64,000 bases of DNA from an uncultured Alteromonadaceae bacterium. GTDB taxonomy: Bacteria > Pseudomonadota > Gammaproteobacteria > Enterobacterales > Alteromonadaceae. The position numbers were made by a program, and so were the translations under genes. The stretch spans positions 1-64,000 of the forward strand of contig CALKGI010000106.1 of the NCBI GenBank assembly GCA_938085045.1, read 5' to 3'. Shown here in pieces: positions 3 through 47,450 of this stretch. Each line of letters starts with the position of its first letter. The stretch's first letter is position 1. A model generated the notes under the pieces. It had not been told where the DNA came from. It did not search any database and saw only the letters and a program-made list of their open reading frames with translations.

Positions 3-2621
3 TTGGCCGGGGCTGTTGGCTCTTTGTCAGACAAGCAGCGTCATAATTTATCGCTGATTGTCACCAGCGGCAATCGTTTAACCCATTTGGTCGACGATAT
101 ACTCGATTTTTCAAAATTGAAGCATCATGAACTTAGCCTCAAACTCACGCCTGTTGATGTTTATACCTTGACTGATTTAGTCATTTTGTTCTCTCGCAAT
201 ACGGTTAGCAAATCTAAGGTTCAGTTAGTTAATAAAGTCGATAGGGGGATTCCGCTGGTGTTGGCTGATGAAAATAGGGTGCAGCAAATTCTCTATAATC
301 TGATTGGAAACGCCATTAAGTTCACCAACGAAGGGCAGATCACCGTATCGTCGAGGGTATGGCGAGATAATGTCACAATTTGTATTGCTGATACCGGCAT
401 TGGCATTGCTGATGACAAACAAGAAAGCATTTTTGAATCTTTTGAGCAGGCCGATGGGTCGGCAACAAGAACGTCGGGTGGCACAGGTTTGGGATTGGCC
501 GTAACCAAGCAATTGGTAGAGCTACATAATGGCACCATTAAGGTTGTCTCGTGCGAGGGAAAAGGCTCAGAATTCAGCTTTACTCTACCAGTTTGCGAAC
601 ATCAACCTGCATCAAAAGAGCTGAGCGAACAAACTCATACCGCCAAAGTGCTGGCTCAAAGTTTAACCAACGAACCTGACGCCCAAACTGAAGGCATTAT
701 GTTAAACGGCAATAAGCCGTTGATGAACAACAGCAAAATTGTCAGTAATACGTCAAGAAACGGGCAAACTACCACCGAGCGCATTTTGGTCGTCGATGAT
801 GAACCAATCAATATTCAGGTCATGCAGAATCATTTGAGTCTAGACAATTATCAGGTGGTTGCGGTGAGCAATGGCAAAGACGCATTGAAGGTCATTGAAA
901 ACGAAGAAAAATTTGATGCGATATTGCTTGATGCCATGATGCCGGGCATGACCGGTTATGAGGTGTGTCGCCAAATTCGCCGTGTTTATCCTGCCAACCA
1001 ATTGCCGGTATTAATGGTCACAGCAAAAGGCGCAGTAGACGACATGAGTGCCAGTTTTGAAGCTGGTGCTAACGACTTTTTGACCAAACCGGTGTCTAAA
1101 ACCGAATTACTCGAAAGAGTGAAAACGCACATTAATGTGGTGCGACTCAACCATGATTTAAATCAAGCCAATTTGCAGTTGAAAAAGCATGCCGACCAAC
1201 TAGAGAAAAAAGTTCTGCAAAAGGCAGCCAAACTGGCCGCGCATGGCGAACAATTAGATAAGGCCAATATCGAATTGGCACATGCCACCAAAAAAGTCAG
1301 CAAAAGCACCACCGATATCGTGATGCTCGAAGAGCTGGGGCGAAGCCTAACCGCGACACTTGAATTGAATCAGGTGATCAAAAATATCTATCGTAGCTTA
1401 AGTACCATTTTAGATGCTCATAGCTTTTTGTTGGGTATTTTAGACATAGAACAAAATGTGGTGCATGTGCCCTTGATAGTTGAAGACAGTCAAAAGCTGT
1501 CTGCGATTGATTATGATTTAGATGAGCCAGGTAGCCCTGTGGTTTGGTGTGTTAAAAACCGCAAAGAGCTATTGATTTTTGAACCATCTGACGTGCGAAA
1601 ATATTTCAATCAGCCACTAGCCAGTCCTAAAACGGGAAAAATCATGGCAACCATCATTTTTATCCCTTTGATTATTGGTGATAAAATTGTTGGTTGCCTG
1701 AGTGTTCAACACCCAGAAGCCCATGCCTTTAACCGTGAACAGATTGATATGTTGCGTACTTTGGCCAGTTATTCTGCCATCGCCATCGCCAATGCATCGG
1801 GTTATGACAAGTTAGAAAGAACCCATGAAGCGTTAATTGATGCGCAAAAACAGTTGGTATTGCAAGAAAAAATGGCCTCGTTGGGTACCCTGACCGCTGG
1901 TGTCGCCCATGAAATAAATAACCCGACCAATTTTGTTCATGTTGGGGTTGAAAATTTGCAGGCCGATTTGGAACGTTTTCATACATTTATTCTTGAATTG
2001 GCCGGGGACGATGCTGATGAAGAAGTGATTGAAGCGTTAAACGAGAAATTCAACCCACTCAATGAACATATCGACACCATCATTAACGGCACCCAGAGAA
2101 TCAAGATCATTGTACAAGACCTACGTGCGTTTACCCATTTACACAGTTCGGATAAGAAACCGGGGGATATTGTTGAATGTATCGAGTCGACCATTAATTT
2201 GGTAAAAGCCAAATACTTTGAAGTCACCGAATTTTTTACTGACTTTAACCCTTTGCCCAAATTGCAGTGTTATCCGGCCCAGCTCAATCAGGTTTTTTTA
2301 AACATTATTGTTAACGCTTGTGATGCTATTGAAGAAAAACAAGCCACTCAATCGATACGTCGTCTGGGTAGTATTTCATTAAGCTGTAAATTTGAAGATG
2401 GCAATATTAAAGTGGTTATTAGTGATAATGGCGCTGGCATGACTGAGCAAACCCGGCTCAGGTTGTTCGAGCCATTTTACACCACCAAAGCCGTAGGCGA
2501 TGGCACAGGCCTTGGTATGGCCATCTCATTTGGTATTATTGAAGACCATGGTGGCACCATCACAGCCCAGTCTACCAAAGGGGTTGGCAGTGAAATTACA
2601 GTGAATTTACCTTTGCTGTGA
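3..2621 (+). CDS. Hybrid sensor histidine kinase, 5' end outside window
   Basis: The frame is open to the window edge, so the true start and the first phospho-accepting His lie upstream. Visible order (residues of the in-window part): remainder of a HisKA helix pair (about 7-60), an HATPase_c domain with N box and GTGLGLA G box (about 75-200), a receiver domain (about 259-375) with VVDDEP acidic pair and Asp near 309 in LLDAMMPG, a coiled coil, a GAF domain (about 455-590), and a second HisKA with AGVAHEINNP (His near 634) plus HATPase_c ending in TGLGMA. Two kinase cores in one chain suggest an internal phosphorelay. The signal is unknown. The second core closely resembles that of the next gene, so the pair probably arose by partial duplication. 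Confidence 0.93.
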   Translation: MAGAVGSLSDKQRHNLSLIVTSGNRLTHLVDDILDFSKLKHHELSLKLTPVDVYTLTDLVILFSRNTVSKSKVQLVNKVDRGIPLVLADENRVQQILYNLIGNAIKFTNEGQITVSSRVWRDNVTICIADTGIGIADDKQESIFESFEQADGSATRTSGGTGLGLAVTKQLVELHNGTIKVVSCEGKGSEFSFTLPVCEHQPASKELSEQTHTAKVLAQSLTNEPDAQTEGIMLNGNKPLMNNSKIVSNTSRNGQTTTERILVVDDEPINIQVMQNHLSLDNYQVVAVSNGKDALKVIENEEKFDAILLDAMMPGMTGYEVCRQIRRVYPANQLPVLMVTAKGAVDDMSASFEAGANDFLTKPVSKTELLERVKTHINVVRLNHDLNQANLQLKKHADQLEKKVLQKAAKLAAHGEQLDKANIELAHATKKVSKSTTDIVMLEELGRSLTATLELNQVIKNIYRSLSTILDAHSFLLGILDIEQNVVHVPLIVEDSQKLSAIDYDLDEPGSPVVWCVKNRKELLIFEPSDVRKYFNQPLASPKTGKIMATIIFIPLIIGDKIVGCLSVQHPEAHAFNREQIDMLRTLASYSAIAIANASGYDKLERTHEALIDAQKQLVLQEKMASLGTLTAGVAHEINNPTNFVHVGVENLQADLERFHTFILELAGDDADEEVIEALNEKFNPLNEHIDTIINGTQRIKIIVQDLRAFTHLHSSDKKPGDIVECIESTINLVKAKYFEVTEFFTDFNPLPKLQCYPAQLNQVFLNIIVNACDAIEEKQATQSIRRLGSISLSCKFEDGNIKVVISDNGAGMTEQTRLRLFEPFYTTKAVGDGTGLGMAISFGIIEDHGGTITAQSTKGVGSEITVNLPLL

Positions 2622-2681
2622 TGCACGTTGCAACGCGTAGCTACGACAATTCAACGCCTAATATAAAAGGAATCGTTTAAT

Positions 2682-4817
2682 ATGACAGTCAGTAGAGTAA
2701 AGTTTGGTATTAAACAAAAATCTTTATTGGTGTTTATCGTTATCTTTTTGGCTTTGTTGATTTTTAGTGGTTATTTGGGCATATCATCACTGGATACCGC
2801 TAAAAAGAACTCGTTACAGGCAAGCAATGCCACGCTACTCGAACACAGTAAAACCTTCTATCAAACTCATACCAGCGCACAAAAACAAACGCTGTCTTTG
2901 TTGCTCAAATCTATTGAAGATGATGCATTAAGCCTTGCTGATTTTGTCGAACGTTTGCTAGTTGAAAATAAACCTCTAACCGGCCTTAGTGACTATTCTG
3001 AGCCGTTATTAAAGCGAAATTCTCACACCAAGAGCCATTTTTTTGTTAATAACACTGGCGATGTAAAATACTACTTGAGCACTGATACCAACGCTGTTTT
3101 AAGGCCAAATCATCCTGCTGTAACAGACCTTTTTTACACTTTGGGCACACCTACCAATAACCCACAAAGAGAATTGCGATGGACACCTTTGTATCAAGAC
3201 CCCACAGGCCTTGGCAGAGTAGTTAGCGCAATAGTACCTGTTTATCATGAAAACCAGTTTGTTGGGGTGGTTGGCACCAGCATTATGCTGCAAAATTTAG
3301 TAGAGCATTTTGTTAAAGCGGATGCCCAAAATGACAGTTACGCGATACTGCTTGATGAGTCATTTCGACCAATTGCCTTAGGTTTGCAAGCCATTAATGA
3401 TATTTATCGTCAAAACCCGCTTGAAGTAGAGCAACTGATACAACAATCATTACTTGAATATGATTCTGATTTTAAAGGTTTTTTTAAACAGATTAGCAAA
3501 ACGCTAAACAATCAAACCAATGGTTACGAAAAAATCACACTGGCTGGACAGGTTCGCTACATAGCTTATGCCGCATTAGATGAACAAGGTTGGATATACG
3601 TCAATATTTTGAGCGAAAAAGCGTTGATTCGCATGGGCCAACCGCTTAACCAGCAATTTGATGACATTTTGGAGGCACTACTCCTCAAATTTGCATTGCC
3701 AACATTGGCCTTTTTTGTGGCCATTTTTTTCTTGATATCGTGGTTACTCAACCGATTTTTACGACCTATCATTCAATTGTCTGACGTCACTAAAACCATT
3801 GCCGTTGGCGCATATGATCAAAAGATAGAGATACAAGCGGTGGGTGAGATTGGCATGCTAGTCGACAATTTCAAATTGATGCAACAATCGATTGTTAAGC
3901 AACAACAGGGGCTTGAGAGCTTTAACAGCGAATTACAAGAAAAAGTGGCCCTTAGAACCGAGGCCATCGAAGCGTCAAACGAAGCGTTACAAACCATGGT
4001 GCACAACCTAAAATTCATGCGCGACCAAATGATAGAGTCAGAAAAAATGGCTTCTTTGGGCACACTGACCGCAGGCGTTGCCCACGAAATTAACAACCCC
4101 ACCAACTTTGTGCATGTGAGTGTACAAAATCTAGAAGCCGATTTAAAAGCGTTTGAAAAGTTCCTTTATAACCTGCTTGACGCCGGTGAAGATGACGAAA
4201 TACAAGAAAGCTTTAAGCAGCAGTTCACCCCGTTATTTGAGCACATATCAACCATTGAAGAGGGTACTGAGCGAATCAAAACCATTGTTCAAAACTTGCG
4301 AACCTTCAGTCATCCGCAGGCGGTGGATAAGAAAATTCTTAAAGTGGCAGATGGTTTGGCGTCAACAGTGAAGTTGGTGCAAACCAAACACACTGAGCTT
4401 GCCCAGTTTGTTACTGACTTTAAAGATAACCCCGCGCTTTTGTGTTACCCCTCAGAGCTTAATCAGGTTTTTATGAACCTCATCATAAACGCGTGCGATG
4501 CCATTCGAGACAAACGTGAAAAGTATAACACCAAAGAGTTAGGCACAATCACCATAGGTTGCCAGCAATTAGAAGAAGCGGTAGAGATCACCGTTCAAGA
4601 TGATGGCTGCGGTATGAATGAAATTACCAAACACCGTTTATTCGAACCCTTTTTTACCACCAAAGACGTAGGCGAGGGCACTGGGCTGGGGTTATCGATT
4701 TCGTACGGCATTATCCAAAAACACGAAGGTGAAATGAAAGTAGAGTCTGAAATTGGATCAGGGACGCTGTTTAGGGTTATTTTGCCGATTTGTGGTGGGT
4801 CTAAAGAGCTTGACTGA
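2682..4817 (+). CDS. Membrane sensor histidine kinase with dCache-like sensor and HAMP domain
   Basis: 711 residues. A first membrane helix (about 14-33), a periplasmic region of about 300 residues of Cache type, a second membrane helix (about 335-357), a HAMP segment, a coiled coil, a HisKA domain with AGVAHEINNP (His near 467) and HATPase_c with GTGLGLS near the C terminus. It should autophosphorylate in response to a small periplasmic ligand. No response regulator gene is adjacent. The only neighbour with a receiver domain is the preceding hybrid kinase, which carries a near-identical H-box, so the two may work together (inference). An AAAGG ribosome binding site lies about 11 bases before the ATG. 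Confidence 0.95.
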   Translation: MTVSRVKFGIKQKSLLVFIVIFLALLIFSGYLGISSLDTAKKNSLQASNATLLEHSKTFYQTHTSAQKQTLSLLLKSIEDDALSLADFVERLLVENKPLTGLSDYSEPLLKRNSHTKSHFFVNNTGDVKYYLSTDTNAVLRPNHPAVTDLFYTLGTPTNNPQRELRWTPLYQDPTGLGRVVSAIVPVYHENQFVGVVGTSIMLQNLVEHFVKADAQNDSYAILLDESFRPIALGLQAINDIYRQNPLEVEQLIQQSLLEYDSDFKGFFKQISKTLNNQTNGYEKITLAGQVRYIAYAALDEQGWIYVNILSEKALIRMGQPLNQQFDDILEALLLKFALPTLAFFVAIFFLISWLLNRFLRPIIQLSDVTKTIAVGAYDQKIEIQAVGEIGMLVDNFKLMQQSIVKQQQGLESFNSELQEKVALRTEAIEASNEALQTMVHNLKFMRDQMIESEKMASLGTLTAGVAHEINNPTNFVHVSVQNLEADLKAFEKFLYNLLDAGEDDEIQESFKQQFTPLFEHISTIEEGTERIKTIVQNLRTFSHPQAVDKKILKVADGLASTVKLVQTKHTELAQFVTDFKDNPALLCYPSELNQVFMNLIINACDAIRDKREKYNTKELGTITIGCQQLEEAVEITVQDDGCGMNEITKHRLFEPFFTTKDVGEGTGLGLSISYGIIQKHEGEMKVESEIGSGTLFRVILPICGGSKELD

Positions 4818-4902
4818 TTTTTGTTGAATTGGCGTCATATGCACTTGCGTTGCGCCCTAATATTCCGCTAGCCTGTAGTGCGCAAATCAAAAAGGTAAAA
4901 AA

Positions 4903-5556
4903 GTGAAAGAAACCTACGCCCTACTTGATATGAAAAGCTGGCCCCGCAGTCAGCATTTCGAATTCTACAAAGCCTTCGCTCAGCCGTTCTTTCAAATTGG
5001 CTGCGACTTAAATGCCAAAGCACTGTTCAGCTATTGTAAAACCAACAACTTGCCATTTTTTGACGCCTACCTGTACTTAACCATGAAAACCATCAATCAG
5101 TTAGAACCGTTTCGTTATCGGGTTGCCGGCGATGAGGTTAGGATTTATGAAAATGTGATGATAAGTGTGGCGGTGATGGCAGCAGATCAAACCTTTCGTT
5201 TTTGCGATATTCCCTATGCCGACAATTTTGTGCAATTCAGCGCAAATTTCAAGGCAGCTAAAGATAAGGCAATATCAGAGCTGTTTTTCAACGATACCTT
5301 TGCAACCAACCAAGCCAACAAAGGCACGGTTTATATGTCGGTGATCCCGTGGGTGAGCTTTACCAGTTTTAACCATGCATCACACTCAAACGACCCTAGC
5401 GGTATACCGCGCATGGTGTTTGGTAAAATGCGCAAAAGCGATTATACAATGCCCTTTACCCTTGATGCGCATCATGCGGTTGTTGACGGGTTACATGTCG
5501 GACAGTTTATTGAGGTTTTACAGGGGTATTTTGATGAGCCGGGGTTGCTTGGGTAG
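4903..5556 (+). CDS. CatA-like chloramphenicol acetyltransferase family protein
   Basis: 217 residues, the usual length of trimeric CatA-type acetyltransferases, which transfer acetyl from acetyl-CoA to a hydroxyl. The active-site motif HHAVVDG (catalytic second His near 189) is intact, and the aromatic N-terminal part (FEFYKAFAQPFF) fits the family. It starts at GTG behind a weak AAAGGTAAAA. Family members on chromosomes of environmental bacteria often have unknown substrates, so drug resistance cannot be assumed. It converges on the toxin gene with only two bases between the stop codons. Confidence 0.85.
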   Translation: MKETYALLDMKSWPRSQHFEFYKAFAQPFFQIGCDLNAKALFSYCKTNNLPFFDAYLYLTMKTINQLEPFRYRVAGDEVRIYENVMISVAVMAADQTFRFCDIPYADNFVQFSANFKAAKDKAISELFFNDTFATNQANKGTVYMSVIPWVSFTSFNHASHSNDPSGIPRMVFGKMRKSDYTMPFTLDAHHAVVDGLHVGQFIEVLQGYFDEPGLLG

Positions 5557-5558
5557 GG

Positions 5559-5852
5559 TTAAATGCGATCAACCCAGTATCCTGGTTTTCTGCTGTTGTG
5601 CATTACAGCAACAATATAAATCCTGTCTTCACTTGCTCTATAGATGAGGGAAAATGGAAATCGTTTGAGCAAGAAACGGCGAAAGCCTTTGAGAAAATTT
5701 GGCCATGTATCTGGCAAAGCGGTGACCGCTGCAATCGCTGATTCAAGTTCATTCATAAAATCATCACCAAGACCAATCGCTTTGTCTTCATACCAGTCGT
5801 AAGATTCTTCTATGTCATATTGAACGTCTGGATGAAATATCAACTTAGCCAT
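5559..5852 (-). CDS. RelE/ParE-type toxin of a toxin-antitoxin pair
   Basis: 97 residues. FHPDVQYDIEESYDWYED and the C-terminal segment LIYRASEDRIYIVAVMHNSRKPGYW are characteristic of the ParE/RelE superfamily. These toxins act on gyrase or on ribosome-bound mRNA; which one applies cannot be told here. The gene overlaps the upstream antitoxin by 8 bases, so the two are translationally coupled. A single such pair on a chromosome may act in stress response or simply be addictive; no mobile element borders are visible. Confidence 0.9.
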   Translation of the reverse strand: MAKLIFHPDVQYDIEESYDWYEDKAIGLGDDFMNELESAIAAVTALPDTWPNFLKGFRRFLLKRFPFSLIYRASEDRIYIVAVMHNSRKPGYWVDRI

Positions 5853-6078
5853 TTTTAGACATTACTGCTGTTTTAATATCGTGCCAGGAAACGGGTTTGA
5901 CTTTCCCTGATTCAAGTTCTTTAAAACGTTGTTCAGCCAATTCTGCCCAGGCTTCATCGACACCGCTGTCTTGTCGGGTTTCAAGAGAAGATATTAGGCA
6001 ATGCGCTACCATGGCTTTGTCATCCGCAGAAAGTGCAGTGGCATCTTTAATCACTTGCTTTAAATTCGTAGACATCAT
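5845..6078 (-). CDS. Antitoxin of the RelE/ParE-type pair (addiction module component)
   Basis: 77 residues, acidic and helical. LSADDKAMVAHCLISSLE and the C-terminal WAELAEQRFKELESGKVKPVSW match the short 'putative addiction module component' antitoxin family that precedes ParE-like toxins. The C-terminal half is expected to wrap around the toxin. The gene comes first in the two-gene operon, the usual order, which allows the complex to regulate its own promoter. Two start codons are adjacent (MM); the first is used here. Confidence 0.86.
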   Translation of the reverse strand: MMSTNLKQVIKDATALSADDKAMVAHCLISSLETRQDSGVDEAWAELAEQRFKELESGKVKPVSWHDIKTAVMSKNG

Positions 6079-6201
6079 GTTACTCGTGTTTTCAGTTTAT
6101 AAGGCGAATATTAGCACAATACTATGACGGAGCATATTTGGCAGTTTACGTATGCAAGTTGGTTACTCCTTGAGTTGGGCTGTTCATGTGCTGATAATAA
6201 G

Positions 6202-6230
6202 TTGACCAAATGGTTAACTAAACATAAATC
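6202..6230 (+). promoter_or_regulatory. Candidate promoter of the Oar-like TonB-dependent receptor
   Basis: TTGACC and TAAATC are separated by 17 bases, about 120 bases before the chosen start codon. It is the best sigma70-like match in the 274-base gap after the antitoxin gene; a TATAAAT stretch near 6245 is an alternative -10. The spacer contains TGGTTAACTA, a short palindrome that might bind a regulator. Confidence 0.35.
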
Positions 6231-6352
6231 ATTCAATATCCAACCTATATAAATACCTGTTAAGCTACGTCGGTTTGGGTTCGCCAAAAGCCGAAATGGG
6301 GTCTACTATTTCTGGCATCACTACCCTTTTTTATTCTATTCGGAGAGCATTC

Positions 6353-9300
6353 ATGCATAAACTGACTCGTGTTGCCTTATTTGTGACCGCAGCCTTGCTG
6401 ACCAGTCACCAAGCTTCAGCGCAAGTGACTTCATCTGGTATCCGGGGGCAACTGGTTGATACCCAGGGTAGCCCGTTGGCGGGGGTCACTGTTGAAGTTA
6501 TTCACGTGCCCACCGGCAGTAAAAAAACCTTAACGACCAGTGCCAACGGTATATTTCAATCTAAAGGTTTGGCCGTAGGTGGCCCTTACACCGTTAAACT
6601 CATGGACGGTTCGCAGTATAAGGTCAATAACATCACCGAATTATTCTTGAAACTTGGCCGTACTGCCAGCGTTGAGCTACAAGCTGCGAGCGCTGCCAAA
6701 GTTGAGGTCATTTCAGTCAAAGGCTCTTCGGCGATGGCTGCGGCAATGAAAAAAGGCCCAAGCAGCGAGTTTAGTGAAGAAGATATTCGTAGCACGCCGT
6801 CTATTAGCCGTGATTTGAAGTCTTTGCTTAAGCGTGAATCTAAAATTATGGTTGACCCTACCGCCGATGGCGGCCCTGCGCTGTCTATTGCGGGCGGTAA
6901 CGTACGTGGCAACAGTTTGACTGTTGACGGCGTTAAGCAAAATGATGATTTTGGTCTGAACAAAAACGGTTACCCGGGTCGTCGTTCACCTATCTCGTTA
7001 GACGCCATAGAGGCATTATCGTTGAATATCGCGCCATTTGATGTCACCTATGGTGATTTTCAAGGCGGTAACATCAATGTCACCACCAAGTCGGGCACCA
7101 ACGAATTCCATGGTACGGCGTTTTATTTCCGCTCCGACGATTCAATGATTGGCGACAAAAGCGAAGGCGAAGATTTGAATATCGGTGATTACACCGAAGA
7201 CACTTACGGATTCACCATTGGTGGGCCTATCATTGAAGACCAATTGTTTTTCTTTGCTTCTTATGAAAAATTTAAGTCCAACTCACCCTATCAATTTAGC
7301 CTCGACAACGAAAATGGTGTTGTTGAACCCAATGAAAAAATTGGTGTAACACAAGCAGACTTCGATCAAATCGCCAGCATTGCTCAGTCGGTTTGGAATT
7401 ACGACATTGGGTCGTACAATACCCCCAAAGATGAGCAAGCCAAAAATCTATTGTTGAAACTCGATTGGTATATAAATGACGACCATCGTGCATCTTTGAC
7501 TTATCAAGACAATAAAGGCAACACGGTTCGTGATTTTTGGGGTGAGACTTTCCCTAACGCCAATTGGGCAACGGCTGAATCAAACCGTTACAACCAAAAC
7601 GAAACGCTTAAAGCCTATAGCTTGCAGGTGTTCTCTGATTGGAACGCCGATTTCTCTACCGAATTTAAACTGTCAGAAAAAGAAGTCAAAACCGCTCAAG
7701 ACCCTTTGTTAGGCGCCAATTTTGGCCAGATGCTAATTGGCACACCAAACGGCGGTCAATTATATATTGGTCCTGATCAGTTCCGTCATGCCAATACGTT
7801 GTCTAATGTTCGTTCTACGATGAAAATCGGTGGTGATTATTTTGTCAATGATGAACATAAGTTGACCTTTGGCTGGCAACATGAAGAGCTTGAAATCGAG
7901 AACCTGTTTGTATTTGGTTCTTTAGGTATGAGTACCTTTGAGAGCATTGAGGCTTTTGAAAATAACTTGGCTTTTCATGTGTTTCAAAACGCGCTTGATG
8001 GCAATCCTCTAAGTGCGCTAGACGAGTTTGAATATGACCTTGATACCTTATATATACAAGACGAGTGGAATGCTACTGATGAGCTGATAGTGACCTACGG
8101 TCTGCGCTACAGCATATATCACAATGATGTTCTACCTACGTTAAACTCCGACTTTGTTTCGCGCCACGGCTATTCAAATCAAGGTAACTTTGACGGCTTA
8201 GACTTGATTGAACCGCGCGTTGGTTTCACCTACACCTATGACAATGAAACCGTTGTTCGTGGCGGCGTTGGCTTGTTTGGCGGCGGTGGCCCTAACGTGT
8301 GGTTGTCTAACTCATATGGCAACGACGGCAGACGCAAAACTTTTGCCGGTTGTTTCGGTGGTTGCTTCGACGGTCATAGCACTCCGCAAGAGGTCACTGA
8401 CTTTTTGGCCGCAGGTGGTTTTAGTGGCGGCAACAGTGATACCAACTCGGTTCATCCAGACTTTGAAATCCCTAGCATTTGGAAAATGAACATTGGCCTA
8501 GAGCGCCGTCAAGACCTTGGCTTTTTGGGTGAAGATTGGTTGCTTACTGGCGACATCATCTATAACAAAGTGAAAAACGCGGCTAAGTATCGTGAATTAA
8601 ACATGGTTAAAACCGCAACGGCACCGGATGGTCGTCCAATTTACAGTTCTCCAGCGCCGTTTGATTTGTCGCTTGAAAATACGAGTAAAGGCGGTGGCGT
8701 GATTGCCAGCATTGGTGCTGCTAAAGTCTTTTACACCGACCACGGCACCTACAGCTTTGACATAGGTTACACCTATCAAGACTTGACCGAGGTGAACCCG
8801 GGTAACGCTTTTGTTGCGTTTGAAGGTTATTCAATGCCAGCCAATGCTGATTTTCAAAGTGAAGAAGAATACAATTCTGAATTTGAAATCGCCCATTCAA
8901 TTACCGCAAATTTAACGTGGAGTGATGAAATTTTTGGTGATAATACCACCACGGTTGCCATTGGTTATACCGGTCGTGAGGGTCGTCATTACAGCCATAC
9001 AATGCGTACGGGTGTTGCCAATGGCTTTGGTGGTTTTGCTGATTTCGCCACTTGGGTGGGTTACAACTCGCAGTCATTGTACGTACCAACTGACGAAAAC
9101 GATCCTTTGGTGAGCTTTGCCGCAGGGTTCGATAAAACGGGTTTCTTCGATTACATCAATTCATCTGAATGTTTGTCCAGTGCCAAAGGCACGATTTCAC
9201 GCCGCCACTCGTGTGAGAGTAGCTGGATACACCGTTTTGATGTGCGCATTATGCAAGAAGTGCAGGTAACCGACGAACAGGCAATTGAGTTAACGTTAGA

Positions 9301-42077: not shown

Positions 42078-42483
42078 AGGACTCTCCAGAACGCCCGGCG
42101 ACCCTGCCCGTTAGGGTATGGGTGGACAGGTCATTTCATGTTTCAAACGATGAGGCCGGGGAACCTCGCTTTTGGCAGAGAGTTTTACTATGACCCAGCG
42201 ATAATGGGTGTTCAAGGAAATGGCGAGGGTTTACGACAGGCGTGGTGTTTTGGCGGATGAATGGTTCTTTAAACGCAAAGTTCACCGTGGGGGAAAATAA
42301 ATGCTAAAAGATAAGGTCAAAAACTTTACCACAGAGGGCACAGGGAGCACAGAGAAAAGCAAAAAACAAAAAAGCTGCTAACTGCTCGAAGAATGGGTGT
42401 ATAGCGGCGTAATCTTCTTAGTCTTTCCTCCGTGTTCTCTGTGGTTAAAAAGCTTTTGATTTTCGCCTTTTTTTTGGGGGCTC
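42078..42483. other. Intergenic region upstream of exbD, no gene
   Basis: About 240 GC-richer bases (42085-42300) carry short hairpins (ACCCT/AGGGT near 42110; ACCCA/TGGGT near 42193) but no open frame that looks like exbB or anything I recognise. Then follows the second CACAGAG palindrome. The different base composition of the first part suggests an inserted repeat or remnant. Confidence 0.4.
42321..42458. repeat. CACAGAG palindrome, copy 2
   Basis: TTTACCACAGAGGGCACAG... in the left arm (42321-42360) is inverted in the right arm (42420-42458, ...GTTCTCTGTGGTTAAA), with about 60 bases between. Same family as the palindromes at 9630-9716 and 56901-57070. Confidence 0.7.
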
Positions 42484-43566
42484 TTAACTTACCTTAGCCA
42501 TCAAATAAGTATCAACATATTGCCCATCGCGAAAAGCATACCCTTTGGCTGTGCCTTCGAGCACAAATCCGTGTTTCTCGTAGAGCGCCTTACCTGCGGT
42601 ATTGTCTGTGTATACTTCAAGTTCAATACGTGTGACGGCCAGCCAGTTGTTGGCAAGATCTATCATTGCCGCAATTAATTTAGAGCCAACGCCCTGACCT
42701 TGGACGTTTTCGCTGACAGCCATGCCAATGTTGGCCACATGTTTTCGTCTGGGTGAGCTGAACACTTCCATGCCAATTTGGCCGACAATTTTACCGTCTA
42801 ACTCGGCCACCAGGCTATAGACATTGTCGCTGCTTTTACTCAGGCGTTGTTGCCATTTATCTTCTGAAGGGTAGGGCAGTTGTAATGTGCCTGCGTAACA
42901 CGAAGGCTGTTGGTAAATTTCTTTGATGGCCACATAATCTTGTGGCTCTGAATGTCTGATGGTGATATTCATAGGAATTCCCTTATTAATAATATTGCCC
43001 AAAACACTGGCGGCTTCATCGTTGTAATTGTCTGACTGCGGATTCATAAAGCCATGACGCCAAGTGGTTTTGATGCACTGAACCGCATTTGATTTTGACA
43101 CACTTTGAATGACTTTATCTACATCAAAATGATCTTCTTCGCACGGGAATATTAGGGTAACAGGGCAATTGGGATTAACGCCAAGGTGATGGCGAATTTG
43201 GCTAGGATAAAAGCCGATAAGGTGTTCTATGGTGCCCGGGCTGAAACGCTCGGTTAGCCTGAATGCAGCTGATGCACCAGCGCTAAATGAAAGTATTTTT
43301 ACCTTTGTGGACAAAGAATCAATGACAGAGAAAATTTTGTCAACATAGGCATCATGACCGCATTGTTCGATAAATCTTTGGTATGCCTGAGCTTCGTTGG
43401 CAAAGGTTTGGCGTACGCCTTGATAGGGGTCGACAATAGTTGCACAGTGTCCATTTTTTAAGGTAAGAGCAAGGTCAATTATGTCGTCAGTTAAACCAAA
43501 GATATCGGTGATAATAACAAGCGCGGTAGTGCTGGGGTTTAAACTTATACTTAAACTCAAGTTCAA
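42484..43566 (-). CDS. Dienelactone-hydrolase-like / YhhY-like GNAT acetyltransferase fusion
   Basis: 360 residues. Residues 1-193 read as an alpha/beta hydrolase of dienelactone hydrolase type: nucleophile Ser95 in SFSAG (Cys in classical enzymes), an acidic residue in EEDHFD, and His171 in WRHGF. Residues 199-360 are an N-acetyltransferase closely resembling E. coli YhhY (IRHSEPQDY, PYPSEDKWQQRL, NVQGQGVGSKL, NWLAVTRIELEVYTDN, YEKHGF). TTG start overlapping the tetR stop (TTGA). Met199 is preceded by AAGGGA at good distance, so a separate acetyltransferase could also be made, or two genes fused recently. Substrates unknown; a detoxifying role would fit the exporter operon (inference). Confidence 0.82.
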   Translation of the reverse strand: MNLSLSISLNPSTTALVIITDIFGLTDDIIDLALTLKNGHCATIVDPYQGVRQTFANEAQAYQRFIEQCGHDAYVDKIFSVIDSLSTKVKILSFSAGASAAFRLTERFSPGTIEHLIGFYPSQIRHHLGVNPNCPVTLIFPCEEDHFDVDKVIQSVSKSNAVQCIKTTWRHGFMNPQSDNYNDEAASVLGNIINKGIPMNITIRHSEPQDYVAIKEIYQQPSCYAGTLQLPYPSEDKWQQRLSKSSDNVYSLVAELDGKIVGQIGMEVFSSPRRKHVANIGMAVSENVQGQGVGSKLIAAMIDLANNWLAVTRIELEVYTDNTAGKALYEKHGFVLEGTAKGYAFRDGQYVDTYLMAKVS

Positions 43567-44165
43567 GCCCTTAAACTGCCAATATAATCTGCTAACACAC
43601 CGGTAAGTTTCTTCATCATATCGTTATCTTGCATACACTTAATGGCACCAATAATGCCTTGCAGTGAACTGATGATAAATATGGCTATGACTGTAGGGTC
43701 TACCGAGTCTTTAACTGTGCCGTTGGCTTTTCCGCGCTCAAGCGCCTCGGCAATTGAGCCACTCCACAGGTTGTAAATTCGCTCTAACCTTTCTTGAAAA
43801 CCTTCATCTAGCCCCGCCATTTCTTGTGAAATGTTATTGAGTGGGCAACCTTGCTCCATTTCTTCGAGGGTCATATCGCAAGTTGAGTTTTCGAGCACCT
43901 GTTTAATTGCGGTGATTGGGTCTTGGCAATCGCGCAATGGCTCTACCCAACGGGTTTCCATCTCTTTTTGCAGCAATTCGTCGACTACCGCATAACCGAG
44001 CGCTTGCTTGTTGGCAAAGTGATGATACAACGCACCTTTGGCCAAACCGGTTGCCGCAAGAATCTGGTCAACTCTCATTCCCTGATAGCCGTTACGGTAC
44101 ATTAATAGGAATGTTGCCTGTAAAATACGTTCTCTTGTTTGTTCTGCGTTTCGTTCTACTGCCAT
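43563..44165 (-). CDS. TetR-family transcriptional regulator
   Basis: 200 residues. The N-terminal helix-turn-helix (RERILQATFLLMYRNGYQGMRVDQILAATGLAKGALYHHFANKQAL) is a textbook TetR domain; the C-terminal ligand-binding part (about 80-195) is close to the TetR_C subfamily seen with CPLNN. It is the third gene of the leftward operon and overlaps the hydrolase/acetyltransferase gene by three bases. The operon promoter contains two AGACCA/TGGTCT operators typical for this branch of the family, so it probably represses its own operon and is released by a ligand related to the exporter's substrate (inference). Confidence 0.93.
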   Translation of the reverse strand: MAVERNAEQTRERILQATFLLMYRNGYQGMRVDQILAATGLAKGALYHHFANKQALGYAVVDELLQKEMETRWVEPLRDCQDPITAIKQVLENSTCDMTLEEMEQGCPLNNISQEMAGLDEGFQERLERIYNLWSGSIAEALERGKANGTVKDSVDPTVIAIFIISSLQGIIGAIKCMQDNDMMKKLTGVLADYIGSLRA

Positions 44166-44289
44166 TGTCTTTACCTTTATTACCGCTGTTGTTACGACAT
44201 CCTGTCTTCGATTGCTTGGATTATAACAAACTCGAAAGCCGCCGGTGCTGTTTGTTGCAGCAATCGGCGGCTAAAAAGAAGATCAAATG

Positions 44290-45099
44290 TTACCTAGCCC
44301 GTTTAAGACCCGACTTCGAAAAGTCTTTTTCGGCCAGCCCTACCTGAAACTGATAATTTTGCCATCTCAAATCAGTAGACTTACCGGTTTGATGGTTCAC
44401 CATCGTCATCAATGCTGGTCGCCAATAGGTATCTAAATAACGTTGATAATCTGTCGCGGTCAACGTTTTGAGTAGCGTGCCTTTACGGTCATAAAATTCA
44501 ATTTTATGGGCGCGTAATTCTTGCTTGTCTAGCCATACCAACTGGTACTTGTAACCCGAGTTTTTATAGTTCGGTGTGTACTTAACCAAATGGCTGTCCA
44601 TCGAATTAACGGTTTCTTCTTTGATGAACTGGTAGCTATATTTTTCGACTTCAAAAGAAGCTAAATCTTCAAAGGCAAACTCACTGCCCATAAACGGCCC
44701 TGACTTGGTGGCCGACGAAATGCGCTTAACACGTTTGAGTGCAGGCAAATATAACCATTGCTCGTCGGCATCAACCGCATGAGAGAAAGACAAAAATGCA
44801 GTGCCTTTAACGTCTCTTGGTTGGTCAAATACCGTCAGGCTTTTGTCGCCGTCGTTGGTCATTTCCATCGACTTGATACGGATTTTGCGCATACTGGTTT
44901 TACCCTGTTTGTTGCGCAACATCATTTGCATATCGGCGGTTGAGTCTTTCCAGCCAAAGTCTCTAAGCTTGGCTTCTTTGGCAATCGACAAACCTTTGGT
45001 TCGTTCTGCCATTTCTGGTGCCGCCTGTGCGGCACCACTGAGTACACTGACTAATGAAAAACTAAGCAGTGACAGGCTTAACAGTATCGAGCGCTTCAT
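44290..45099 (-). CDS. LolA-like periplasmic 'outer membrane lipoprotein-sorting protein'
   Basis: 269 residues with a signal peptide ending AAQA-A. The body matches the LolA-like family (PF17131 type): RDFGWKDSTADMQMMLRN, GTAFLSFSH, DEQWLYLPALKRVKRISS, GPFMGSEFAFEDL. Members are predicted half-open beta-barrels that shuttle lipids or lipoproteins in the periplasm and are commonly encoded beside MMPL/RND transporters, as here. It overlaps the RND gene by 38 bases, so translation is closely coupled. It probably accepts the substrate moved by the RND protein (inference); it is not the housekeeping LolA. Confidence 0.88.
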   Translation of the reverse strand: MKRSILLSLSLLSFSLVSVLSGAAQAAPEMAERTKGLSIAKEAKLRDFGWKDSTADMQMMLRNKQGKTSMRKIRIKSMEMTNDGDKSLTVFDQPRDVKGTAFLSFSHAVDADEQWLYLPALKRVKRISSATKSGPFMGSEFAFEDLASFEVEKYSYQFIKEETVNSMDSHLVKYTPNYKNSGYKYQLVWLDKQELRAHKIEFYDRKGTLLKTLTATDYQRYLDTYWRPALMTMVNHQTGKSTDLRWQNYQFQVGLAEKDFSKSGLKRAR

Positions 45100-47377
45100 C
45101 TTTTTTTCCTTCTAATTTAATCAATAATGGGGGTAACAATAGAAAATCTACGGCCAACGCAACGGCAATGGTGATTGCAGTCAAAAGGCCCATGTCTGAG
45201 TTCATTCTAAAGGTTGAGAACATCAGTACTGAGAAACCTGTGACCAATACGGCGGTAGTAACCATAAGTGCGCTACCGACATTTCTAAACGCATAGCGAA
45301 TGGCTTCTTGCGTGGTGAATTGTTTTTCTCGTTTGGCACGCATGTACTTACTTAAAAAGTGCACCGTATCGTCGACAACAATACCCAATGTCATACCTGC
45401 AACGATAGATACCGACATACCGATGTTGGCTGACAATATGCCCCAGGCACCAAAAGCGATGGCGACCGGCACTAGGTTTGGCACTAGGCTGATTAAGCCC
45501 ATTTTGACTGAACGCAGTGCAAAAATCAGTATCATCGAAATCAGTATCAAGGCCACGACAGCACCGCCAACTAAGCTTATGGCGTTGCGTTTGCCAATGT
45601 GTGAGAACATCAGTGAGGTGCTGGCAACATCAACATCGTACTGAGGAGCATTAGTTTGCAGCCAGTTATTGAGGTTTTGTTCTAGTGCCAACATTTGCTG
45701 GCTCGACATTTCACGCAACGACATGGTTACTCGGGTTGATGATTTGGCGATATCAATTTGGTTGTTTAAATCCAAACCATACGGCAAAGACATTTCGTAC
45801 AACAAAAGGTATTGGGCCGCCAAGTCACGTTGCTCTGGTAGTAAATACCAGTTAGGGTCGTCACCGTGCATGTTTTTGTTCAAACGGGTCATGATGTCGG
45901 TCAGACTATTTACGTGTAGTACCTCGGGCAACGTTTTAGCGTAATTAACAAAATCGTTAAGTGTTTTCAAAAATGCAGGTTCGCTAATGCCGTTGTCTTC
46001 ACCACTTTTTAATGAATATTCAATGGTGTAAGGGCCAACCAAGTGTTTGGTTGCGTAGTCGGTGTCGGCTCTAAAATCTAGGCTGGTATCGAAGTATTTA
46101 ACGTACTCGTCATTAAGCTGGTTATTGGGTATAAAGGTCATCATAAATACGCTTAGAATAACCATGCCATACAATAACTTGGTGTTATTGTTGATGACAA
46201 AATTACTGAGCTTATTCATTTTGCTTTCGTCGACGTCTTTGGCCTTTTTGACTCTTATCGGCAATATAACGGCCAAAGCAGGTAATAAGGTCACACTTAA
46301 AACAAACGCAGCAAATACACCTACGGCGACGATATTACCCAAGTGCACCAAAGGTGGTACGTCTGAGAAATTCATGGTCATAAAACCGATGATGGTGGTT
46401 ACCGAGGTTAGCAAAATGGGCTGCATGTTCACGCGTAAGCTTTCAGTTATTGCCTCTTGCTTATTCATGCCCAAACGCATACTGGCAATAAAAGTGACTA
46501 GAATGTGCACTGCATCGGCTACGGCCATGGTCAAAATAATGGTGGGTGCTGAGGCAGAGGGTGGGGTTAATTTGAACCCTGCCCAGCCAAACATGCCCAT
46601 GCCCACCAGAATCGACATAAAGATAATCACAACAGAAATAATGGTTGCGCTGACACTGCGAAGTAACACGCCCAATACCACGATAACCACCAAGAACATC
46701 AACGGCACCAAAGAAGCCATGTCGTTTTGTGAGCTTTCGCCAAAGGCGTTGTTGAGCATCATTATGCCTGTTAAACGAACGTCAATATTAGCGTCTCGTG
46801 CTTCGAGTTGTTTGGCCAAATCACGAGCAAATGCCACAACCTCTGGCACTTCAGATAAAGCTTTACCGGGCAGTTGAGTAGTGACGTTAATGGCGGTTAC
46901 CGTGGCTTGTTTGTTGATTAAGCGATTAACCAATAATGGCTCGGTGGTTGCTATGGTTTGCAATTCGGTTAAATCTGCGCTCGACATCTGAGTCGTGTCA
47001 CCGACTAAATCGGCCACTTCTAAATCGTCTTCAAAAGCGCGGGTATGTTGGTAGTTAGTAATTGAATCAACGCGGGTAGAGAAGGGAACTTGCCATGCTT
47101 GCTCGGTCATCCAGCGAATTTGCTCAAGGGTTTGCTTGGTAAAAACTAAGCCGTCTTTTGGCGTAATGACCATCAGCACGTTGTCTGACTTGTCGTAGGT
47201 ATCTTGCATGGCTTCAAAAGCCTGCAATTGTGGATTACCTTCGGCGAAAAATGCTCGGTAATCGGTGGTGAAAGCTAAGAAGCGGCCGCCACTGGCTGCC
47301 ATACCCACCCATAGTATTGTCATTAAAAGCACTAACCAGCGCCATTTAATGATTGTCTGGGCATATTTTATAACCAT
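45062..47377 (-). CDS. RND/MMPL-family transporter
   Basis: 771 residues in two repeats: TM1 (about 13-32), a periplasmic loop (35-225), TM2-6 (about 226-385), TM7 (about 397-413), a second loop (415-610), and TM8-12 (612-755). TLGIVVDDTVHFLSKY and TMAVADAVHILVTF are the paired intramembrane acidic motifs of the superfamily. The shape (two MMPL domains, no AcrB-like docking regions) fits exporters of lipids or hydrophobic compounds rather than AcrB-type pumps. It is the first gene of an operon with a LolA-like protein, a TetR regulator and the fusion enzyme. Ribosome binding site GGGAGAAC. Confidence 0.93.
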   Translation of the reverse strand: MVIKYAQTIIKWRWLVLLMTILWVGMAASGGRFLAFTTDYRAFFAEGNPQLQAFEAMQDTYDKSDNVLMVITPKDGLVFTKQTLEQIRWMTEQAWQVPFSTRVDSITNYQHTRAFEDDLEVADLVGDTTQMSSADLTELQTIATTEPLLVNRLINKQATVTAINVTTQLPGKALSEVPEVVAFARDLAKQLEARDANIDVRLTGIMMLNNAFGESSQNDMASLVPLMFLVVIVVLGVLLRSVSATIISVVIIFMSILVGMGMFGWAGFKLTPPSASAPTIILTMAVADAVHILVTFIASMRLGMNKQEAITESLRVNMQPILLTSVTTIIGFMTMNFSDVPPLVHLGNIVAVGVFAAFVLSVTLLPALAVILPIRVKKAKDVDESKMNKLSNFVINNNTKLLYGMVILSVFMMTFIPNNQLNDEYVKYFDTSLDFRADTDYATKHLVGPYTIEYSLKSGEDNGISEPAFLKTLNDFVNYAKTLPEVLHVNSLTDIMTRLNKNMHGDDPNWYLLPEQRDLAAQYLLLYEMSLPYGLDLNNQIDIAKSSTRVTMSLREMSSQQMLALEQNLNNWLQTNAPQYDVDVASTSLMFSHIGKRNAISLVGGAVVALILISMILIFALRSVKMGLISLVPNLVPVAIAFGAWGILSANIGMSVSIVAGMTLGIVVDDTVHFLSKYMRAKREKQFTTQEAIRYAFRNVGSALMVTTAVLVTGFSVLMFSTFRMNSDMGLLTAITIAVALAVDFLLLPPLLIKLEGKKDEALDTVKPVTA

Positions 47378-47397
47378 TTTTGTTCTCCCGATAGCTT

Positions 47398-47413
47398 CAG
47401 ACCAACTGGTCTG
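47398..47413. promoter_or_regulatory. TetR-type operator 1 of the RND operon
   Basis: CAGACCAACTGGTCTG: 7-base arms CAGACCA/TGGTCTG around two central bases. It lies between the predicted start of transcription and the RND start codon, a position suited to block elongation or initiation. Confidence 0.8.
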
Positions 47414-47421
47414 TTTGCGTT

Positions 47422-47450
47422 ATTAAATAACAAACCAACTGGTCTGTCAA
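47422..47450 (-). promoter_or_regulatory. Promoter of the RND / LolA-like / TetR operon
   Basis: On the minus strand TTGACA (47450-47445) and TTTAAT (47427-47422) are separated by exactly 17 bases. The second TetR-type operator lies in this spacer, so a bound repressor would exclude RNA polymerase. Confidence 0.75.
47431..47446. promoter_or_regulatory. TetR-type operator 2 of the RND operon
   Basis: CAAACCAACTGGTCTG, identical to operator 1 except one base. The two are 33 bases apart, about three helical turns, so two repressor dimers could bind the same face of the DNA. Confidence 0.8.

Follow-up and report, generated by a model that had tools for sequence, protein, structure and literature searches.

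Several systems have been described in which an RND pump is linked to a LolA-like protein. In Castellaniella defragrans, deletion of ameABCD lowers the tolerance to hydrophobic monoterpenes; AmeABCD joins an HAE3 RND pump to a periplasmic protein of the LolA superfamily (AmeB, a DUF1329 protein), together with outer-membrane AmeA (DUF1302) and AmeC, and the excerpts of that report used here describe no TetR (PMC6394551). In the aryl-polyene cluster of Escherichia coli, a lipid-biosynthesis cluster that also encodes a LolB-like protein, the gene of a LolA-like chaperone adjoins that of an RND transporter (PMC8253772). In Thalassolituus oleivorans, MMPL and LolA-like domains are linked in a single fused protein, TOL_3187, which is strongly induced on a long-chain alkane and has a proposed role in alkane transport, the excerpted part of the source describing no TetR partner (PMC6304351). 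On the regulatory side, the E. coli repressor NemR (nemRA-gloA) is a TetR protein encoded upstream of detoxification genes; it regulates a reductase and a glyoxalase and no pump, and its Cys106-Lys175 pair is a reported HOCl (bleach) switch.

The locus studied here lies in a 64,000-nucleotide stretch of DNA (the window) from an uncultured Alteromonadaceae bacterium. Its four ORFs, all on the minus strand, are ordered RND > LolA-like > TetR > DLH-GNAT in the direction of transcription (Table 1), and its neighbours in the window are ExbD-, SecA- and RluA-type genes. The preliminary description had placed these ORFs correctly, as it had the 38-nt overlap between the RND and LolA-like genes and the 124-nt gap between the LolA-like gene and tetR; the overlap between tetR and the enzyme gene, given there as 3 bases, measures 4 nt (TTGA). 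Unlike AmeABCD, as excerpted from its report, the cassette lacks genes for AmeA (DUF1302) and AmeC, which sets it outside that subfamily. Unlike the aryl-polyene cluster, the locus has neither lipid-biosynthesis genes nor a LolB-like protein, and unlike TOL_3187 its pump and carrier are separate proteins. We read it, with a probability of roughly one in two, as an autorepressed RND > LolA-like > TetR export cassette with a genus-specific fused enzyme behind the repressor. This reading is favoured by the linkage of RND, LolA and TetR genes in dozens of genomes, by operator conservation and by the uniqueness of the sites, and disfavoured in part because no cassette outside the genus is accompanied by the enzyme and because a hairpin and a possible internal promoter precede tetR.

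Table 1. Positions in the window of the genes and predicted regulatory elements of the cassette
Feature	Position	Strand	Remarks
RND transporter, MMPL / HAE3-like branch	45062..47377	-	771 aa ORF
LolA-like periplasmic protein	44290..45099	-	269 aa ORF
TetR_C_13 repressor	43563..44165	-	200 aa ORF; Cys107, Lys176, Cys177
DLH-GNAT fusion enzyme	42484..43566	-	360 aa ORF; TTG start in TTGA overlap with tetR stop
Operator 1 (predicted)	47431..47446		overlaps -35 box; CAGACC-N4-GGTCTG
Operator 2 (predicted)	47398..47413		between inferred transcription start and RND start codon; CAGACC-N4-GGTCTG
Promoter TTGACA-17-TTTAAT	47422..47450	-	read from sequence; layout common to most RND>LolA>TetR relatives
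Strong hairpin, gap between LolA-like gene and tetR	44237..44272	-	-24.6 kcal/mol, z -4.1
Candidate internal extended -10 before tetR	44220..44225	-	TGTTATAAT; conserved block in sister species

Downstream of the enzyme gene, positions 42300-42475 hold a non-coding element with inverted ends (CCACAGAG...CTCTGTGG), which is absent in the sister species and has 43 partial matches elsewhere in the genome; it is a dispersed short repeat inserted at this place. An Rfam search of the region matched no known RNA element, and an anti-phage system was ruled out, as PADLOC gave no match.

Pump and carrier

The RND protein scores 117.5 bits against the Pfam MMPL profile (cut-off 20.5). Its best NCBIfam model, HAE3 TIGR00921, aligns over nearly the full length with 157 bits, below the cut-off of 351.9, and for this reason we term the protein HAE3-like and not a named member. 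Asp288, Asp669 and Asp670 are kept in 62, 68 and 67 of 69 homologues, respectively; we take them to be proton-relay aspartates placed in TM4 (Asp288) and TM10 (Asp669/670). The periplasmic protein matches PF17131 (LolA_like) with 213.5 bits over profile positions 2-184 of 184, has, as read by eye, an apparent signal peptide with no lipobox, and aligns to PDB 3bk5, presumably a Vibrio protein, at E 9e-95. Among the classical-LolA equivalogs it reaches just 21.3 bits (LolA1_Flavo, cut-off 100), which places it outside that class.

What is known of the protein families, the conserved aspartates and the precedents of Ame, the aryl-polyene genes and the alkane-induced Thalassolituus protein point to a role in transport. 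The proton-driven pump would extract a hydrophobic or amphiphilic compound from the inner membrane and its LolA-like partner would carry this compound across the periplasm; that the substrate is hydrophobic and goes to the outer membrane is suggested at the level of the protein families.

Two further LolA-RND pairs were seen in the same genome. One (L066, C28, about 5826-8922) is of the family's usual type and compares with the window's pair at 61% for LolA and 47% for RND. The other (L067, C12, about 2612-5448) is distant, at about 23% for RND and 24% for LolA.

Operators and a NemR-like repressor

The two TetR-type operators that the preliminary description had seen are real: near-identical CAGACC-N4-GGTCTG repeats, 33 bp apart, precede the RND gene. 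Scanning the window with up to 2 mismatches gave 3 matches against 0.30 expected, the 3 being two places of which one was counted on both strands. Since the genome (81% complete) holds no further site with 1 mismatch or fewer, the TetR looks like a local regulator. The main promoter was missed by our promoter scan because the scanner demands an A at position 2 of the -10 box, and the matches that the scan did return were no more numerous than in shuffled sequences.

Conservation of the operator follows the gene order. Upstream of the RND gene, a predicted operator with 0-2 mismatches was found in 27 of 28 loci of the same order (deduplicated), most of them with TTGACA joined to it, and the sole failure (L138) is truncated by its contig start; these counts are not independent trials, because the loci share descent. 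None of 15 RND-LolA loci without a related TetR, most of which have a different TetR upstream, has the operator, and their best scores of 5-7 mismatches compare with an average of 5-6 in shuffled sequences. TetR-first loci contain palindromes that are related to the operator but diverged. These sequence comparisons give good support to the prediction that the TetR represses the promoter of its own operon, and the earlier idea of a self-controlled export cassette holds up, TetR and operator being conserved with RND-LolA in dozens of further genomes. In the reading that we favour, the TetR would occupy both sites and thereby block transcription of pump, carrier and its own gene, and an inducer would free the repressor and permit expression of pump and carrier. 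Close TetR relatives (about 51%) were also seen at two loci (L140, 5041-5736; L145, 5061-5864) in divergent orientation beside a VIT-family gene, not RND-LolA, with a similar palindrome upstream.

What might this inducer be? The repressor consists of TetR_N and TetR_C_13 domains, and its Cys107 and Lys176 share alignment columns with NemR Cys106 and Lys175. In E. coli, TAGACCGACTGGTCTA lies 30 nt before the nemR start, and its core, GACC-N4-GGTC, is the same as that of the window operator CAGACCAGTTGGTCTG upstream of the operon. The protein is not a NemR orthologue, however: identity is 20%, the neighbours differ (nemA/gloA in E. coli), and Met and Ala stand at the positions of NemR Cys21 and Cys116. 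Perhaps it works like NemR, though it is not NemR itself, in which case the inducer could be a thiol-reactive compound or an oxidant sensed via Cys107-Lys176, as the aligned residues and the similar operator core, the most specific clue to the inducer, suggest. Almost every TetR of this group has such a pair, whether or not its gene is linked to RND, and the residues may therefore be structural. The Cys177 that follows (codon at about 43635-43637) is present in 17/17 RND>LolA>TetR loci vs 1/32 TetR-first loci, and could be a second thiol of such a switch.

A different ligand can be entertained tentatively, with the odds leaning against it: the TetR would sense a lipid-like compound of the acyl-CoA, lactone or acrylate type, and the RND-LolA pair would serve envelope-lipid trafficking and not act as a stress exporter. 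Ligands of these types are sensed by other TetR_C_13 members, and the best NCBIfam matches of the repressor are AcuR (acrylate; NF051457, 88.3 bits against a cut-off of 247, which leaves it outside that model) and ScbR (butyrolactone type), both under cut-off. The LolA fold, moreover, binds acyl chains. HpnN, an HAE3 member, moves hopanoids as quoted in excerpts of the literature. Against this, a thiol switch is favoured by a Cys and a Lys that align exactly with those of NemR and by the common operator core, and the operon is without a lipid-synthesis gene.

Distribution and origin of the three-gene core

In the sample from the order, the top TetR matches directly adjoin LolA and RND genes, and 80 named TetR loci fall into three arrangements: RND>LolA>TetR, TetR>RND>LolA and divergent. 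Most of the loci belong to Gammaproteobacteria; others come from Magnetococcales, Pelagicoccus (Verrucomicrobiota) and bins labelled Omnitrophota and Krumholzibacteriota, two labels that are possibly wrong. Loci of Kangiella, Pleionea and Aliikangiella share with the window the three genes, their order, the operator placement and the group in the RND tree, and differ in having no DLH-GNAT behind the TetR. Our literature search found no paper on these RND>LolA>TetR loci of public genomes, nor any on an RND-LolA-TetR operon. The three-gene core is thus a recurring, widespread and little-studied unit, and what is unusual in the window is the added enzyme and the possible chemical switch in the TetR. 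The linkage in related genomes expected by the preliminary description accordingly exists for the core, while its fourth gene is unlinked outside the genus.

In a tree of RND proteins (70 rows), a single branch separates each of the RND>LolA>TetR, divergent and other-regulator groups from all other rows, whereas two changes are required for the TetR>RND>LolA group. Within the RND>LolA>TetR group, the window's RND clusters with that of the sister species and those of two proteobacterial bins, and not with the RND-LolA genes of its own family. At E <= 1e-40, the TetR was found in only this genus's two genomes among 397 in the family. The simplest reading is a gain of the cassette from outside the family, though an old paralogue may instead have been retained in the genus.

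The fused enzyme and its link to the cassette

The fourth gene encodes a fusion of a DLH domain (PF01738, 37.7 bits against a cut-off of 21) and a GNAT domain (Acetyltransf_1). Ser95, Glu144 and His171 of the enzyme are conserved in 12 aligned relatives, standalone ones included, and are the putative nucleophile, acid and His of the catalytic site. We considered whether the sister species has lost the DLH acid (Asn for Asp; KENHF vs EEDHF) and dropped the idea, because aligned relatives vary at this position but all keep the Glu located two residues ahead of HF. An assembly error or pseudogene is out, the fusion being open in both species with dN/dS of about 0.12-0.13. An AAGG stretch 8 nt before an internal ATG of the GNAT part (about 42965-42985) is conserved, and a separate GNAT product beside the fusion is therefore possible.

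The fusion was seen only in the two species of the genus examined (G000, G001); the class (n=369) and family (n=397) samples held no further genome with it. The G001 locus is divided between two contigs. Their ends share a 38-nt overlap within tetR, with one mismatch, which makes linkage there very likely, not proven. The family has many standalone DLH and GNAT relatives, found neither together nor beside the cassette within the flanks examined. The closest standalone GNAT relative (71%; L231 in G749, about 1200-2100) was tried as an unfused DLH-GNAT pair, as the match reached into the DLH part, and discarded; it follows a gene whose product resembles, by eye, a Kdo/lipid-A core kinase.

How the enzyme gene is expressed depends in part on the gap between the LolA-like gene and tetR. 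The claim that all four genes lie behind one promoter fits the TTGACA-17-TTTAAT that can be read upstream of the RND gene, and is called into question by the 124-nt gap, with its hairpin and conserved extended -10. Between the two species the gap differs in length, and each has a strong structure there, not the same one. A block TTTGTTA(T/C)AAT...GACAGGATGTC is conserved in both just before tetR and resembles an extended -10 with a small inverted repeat; the resemblance is only suggestive, because the promoter scan did no better than shuffles and did not pick it out. With the hairpin and this candidate promoter ahead of tetR, a single transcript is not assured. Within the last two genes, the TTGA overlap is identical in the sister species and the codons right after it have diverged. 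Stop/start coupling to the TetR probably drives translation of the enzyme, which would for that reason answer to the same signal.

It is a serious possibility, if somewhat short of even odds, that the enzyme is a passenger that landed downstream of tetR, expressed by read-through or from an internal promoter and unrelated to the substrate of the pump. No gene for it lies beside the cassette in any other taxon of the family, order and class samples or among the 80 named TetR loci, its standalone relatives stand at unrelated places (the GNAT behind the kinase-like gene among them), and the hairpin and candidate promoter precede tetR. The DLH part is also the fastest-changing piece of the locus: between the two species, dN/dS is about 0.06 for RND, 0.05 for LolA, 0.08 for TetR, 0.13 for DLH and 0.12 for GNAT. 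Yet values this low indicate that all five parts are constrained, and purifying selection on both enzyme domains, together with a TTGA overlap between tetR stop and enzyme start that both species retain, speaks against a mere passenger. At the other extreme, a sensor, a modifying enzyme and an exporter that jointly handle one compound seem improbable to us. The four-gene order is retained in both species of the genus, but the enzyme accompanies the cassette in no other genome and nothing links it to the substrate; the integrated and recurring system for sensing, modification and export envisaged at the outset is thus not borne out. Under the favoured reading of an autorepressed cassette with a genus-specific enzyme behind it, the four-part combination would be a genus-level add-on with a putative functional link to the pump, and the DLH-GNAT protein might conceivably modify or detoxify a compound related to the exported one.

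RND and LolA-like pairs are common, and their substrates and signals are little characterised. With this in mind, one may speculate, although we consider it unlikely as a whole, that the locus belongs to a widespread, undescribed class of RND-LolA exporters under NemR-like switch repressors. According to this speculation, the class would form an envelope response to oxidants or electrophiles, exporting damaged lipids or lipophilic electrophiles, and the hydrolase/acetyltransferase added in this genus would detoxify the same compounds in the cytoplasm. The conserved operator and Cys-Lys pair offer a cheap entry to such systems, from the repressor to its inducer and from there to a hint at the substrate, and the genus-specific fusion provides a natural case of an enzyme appended to an export cassette.
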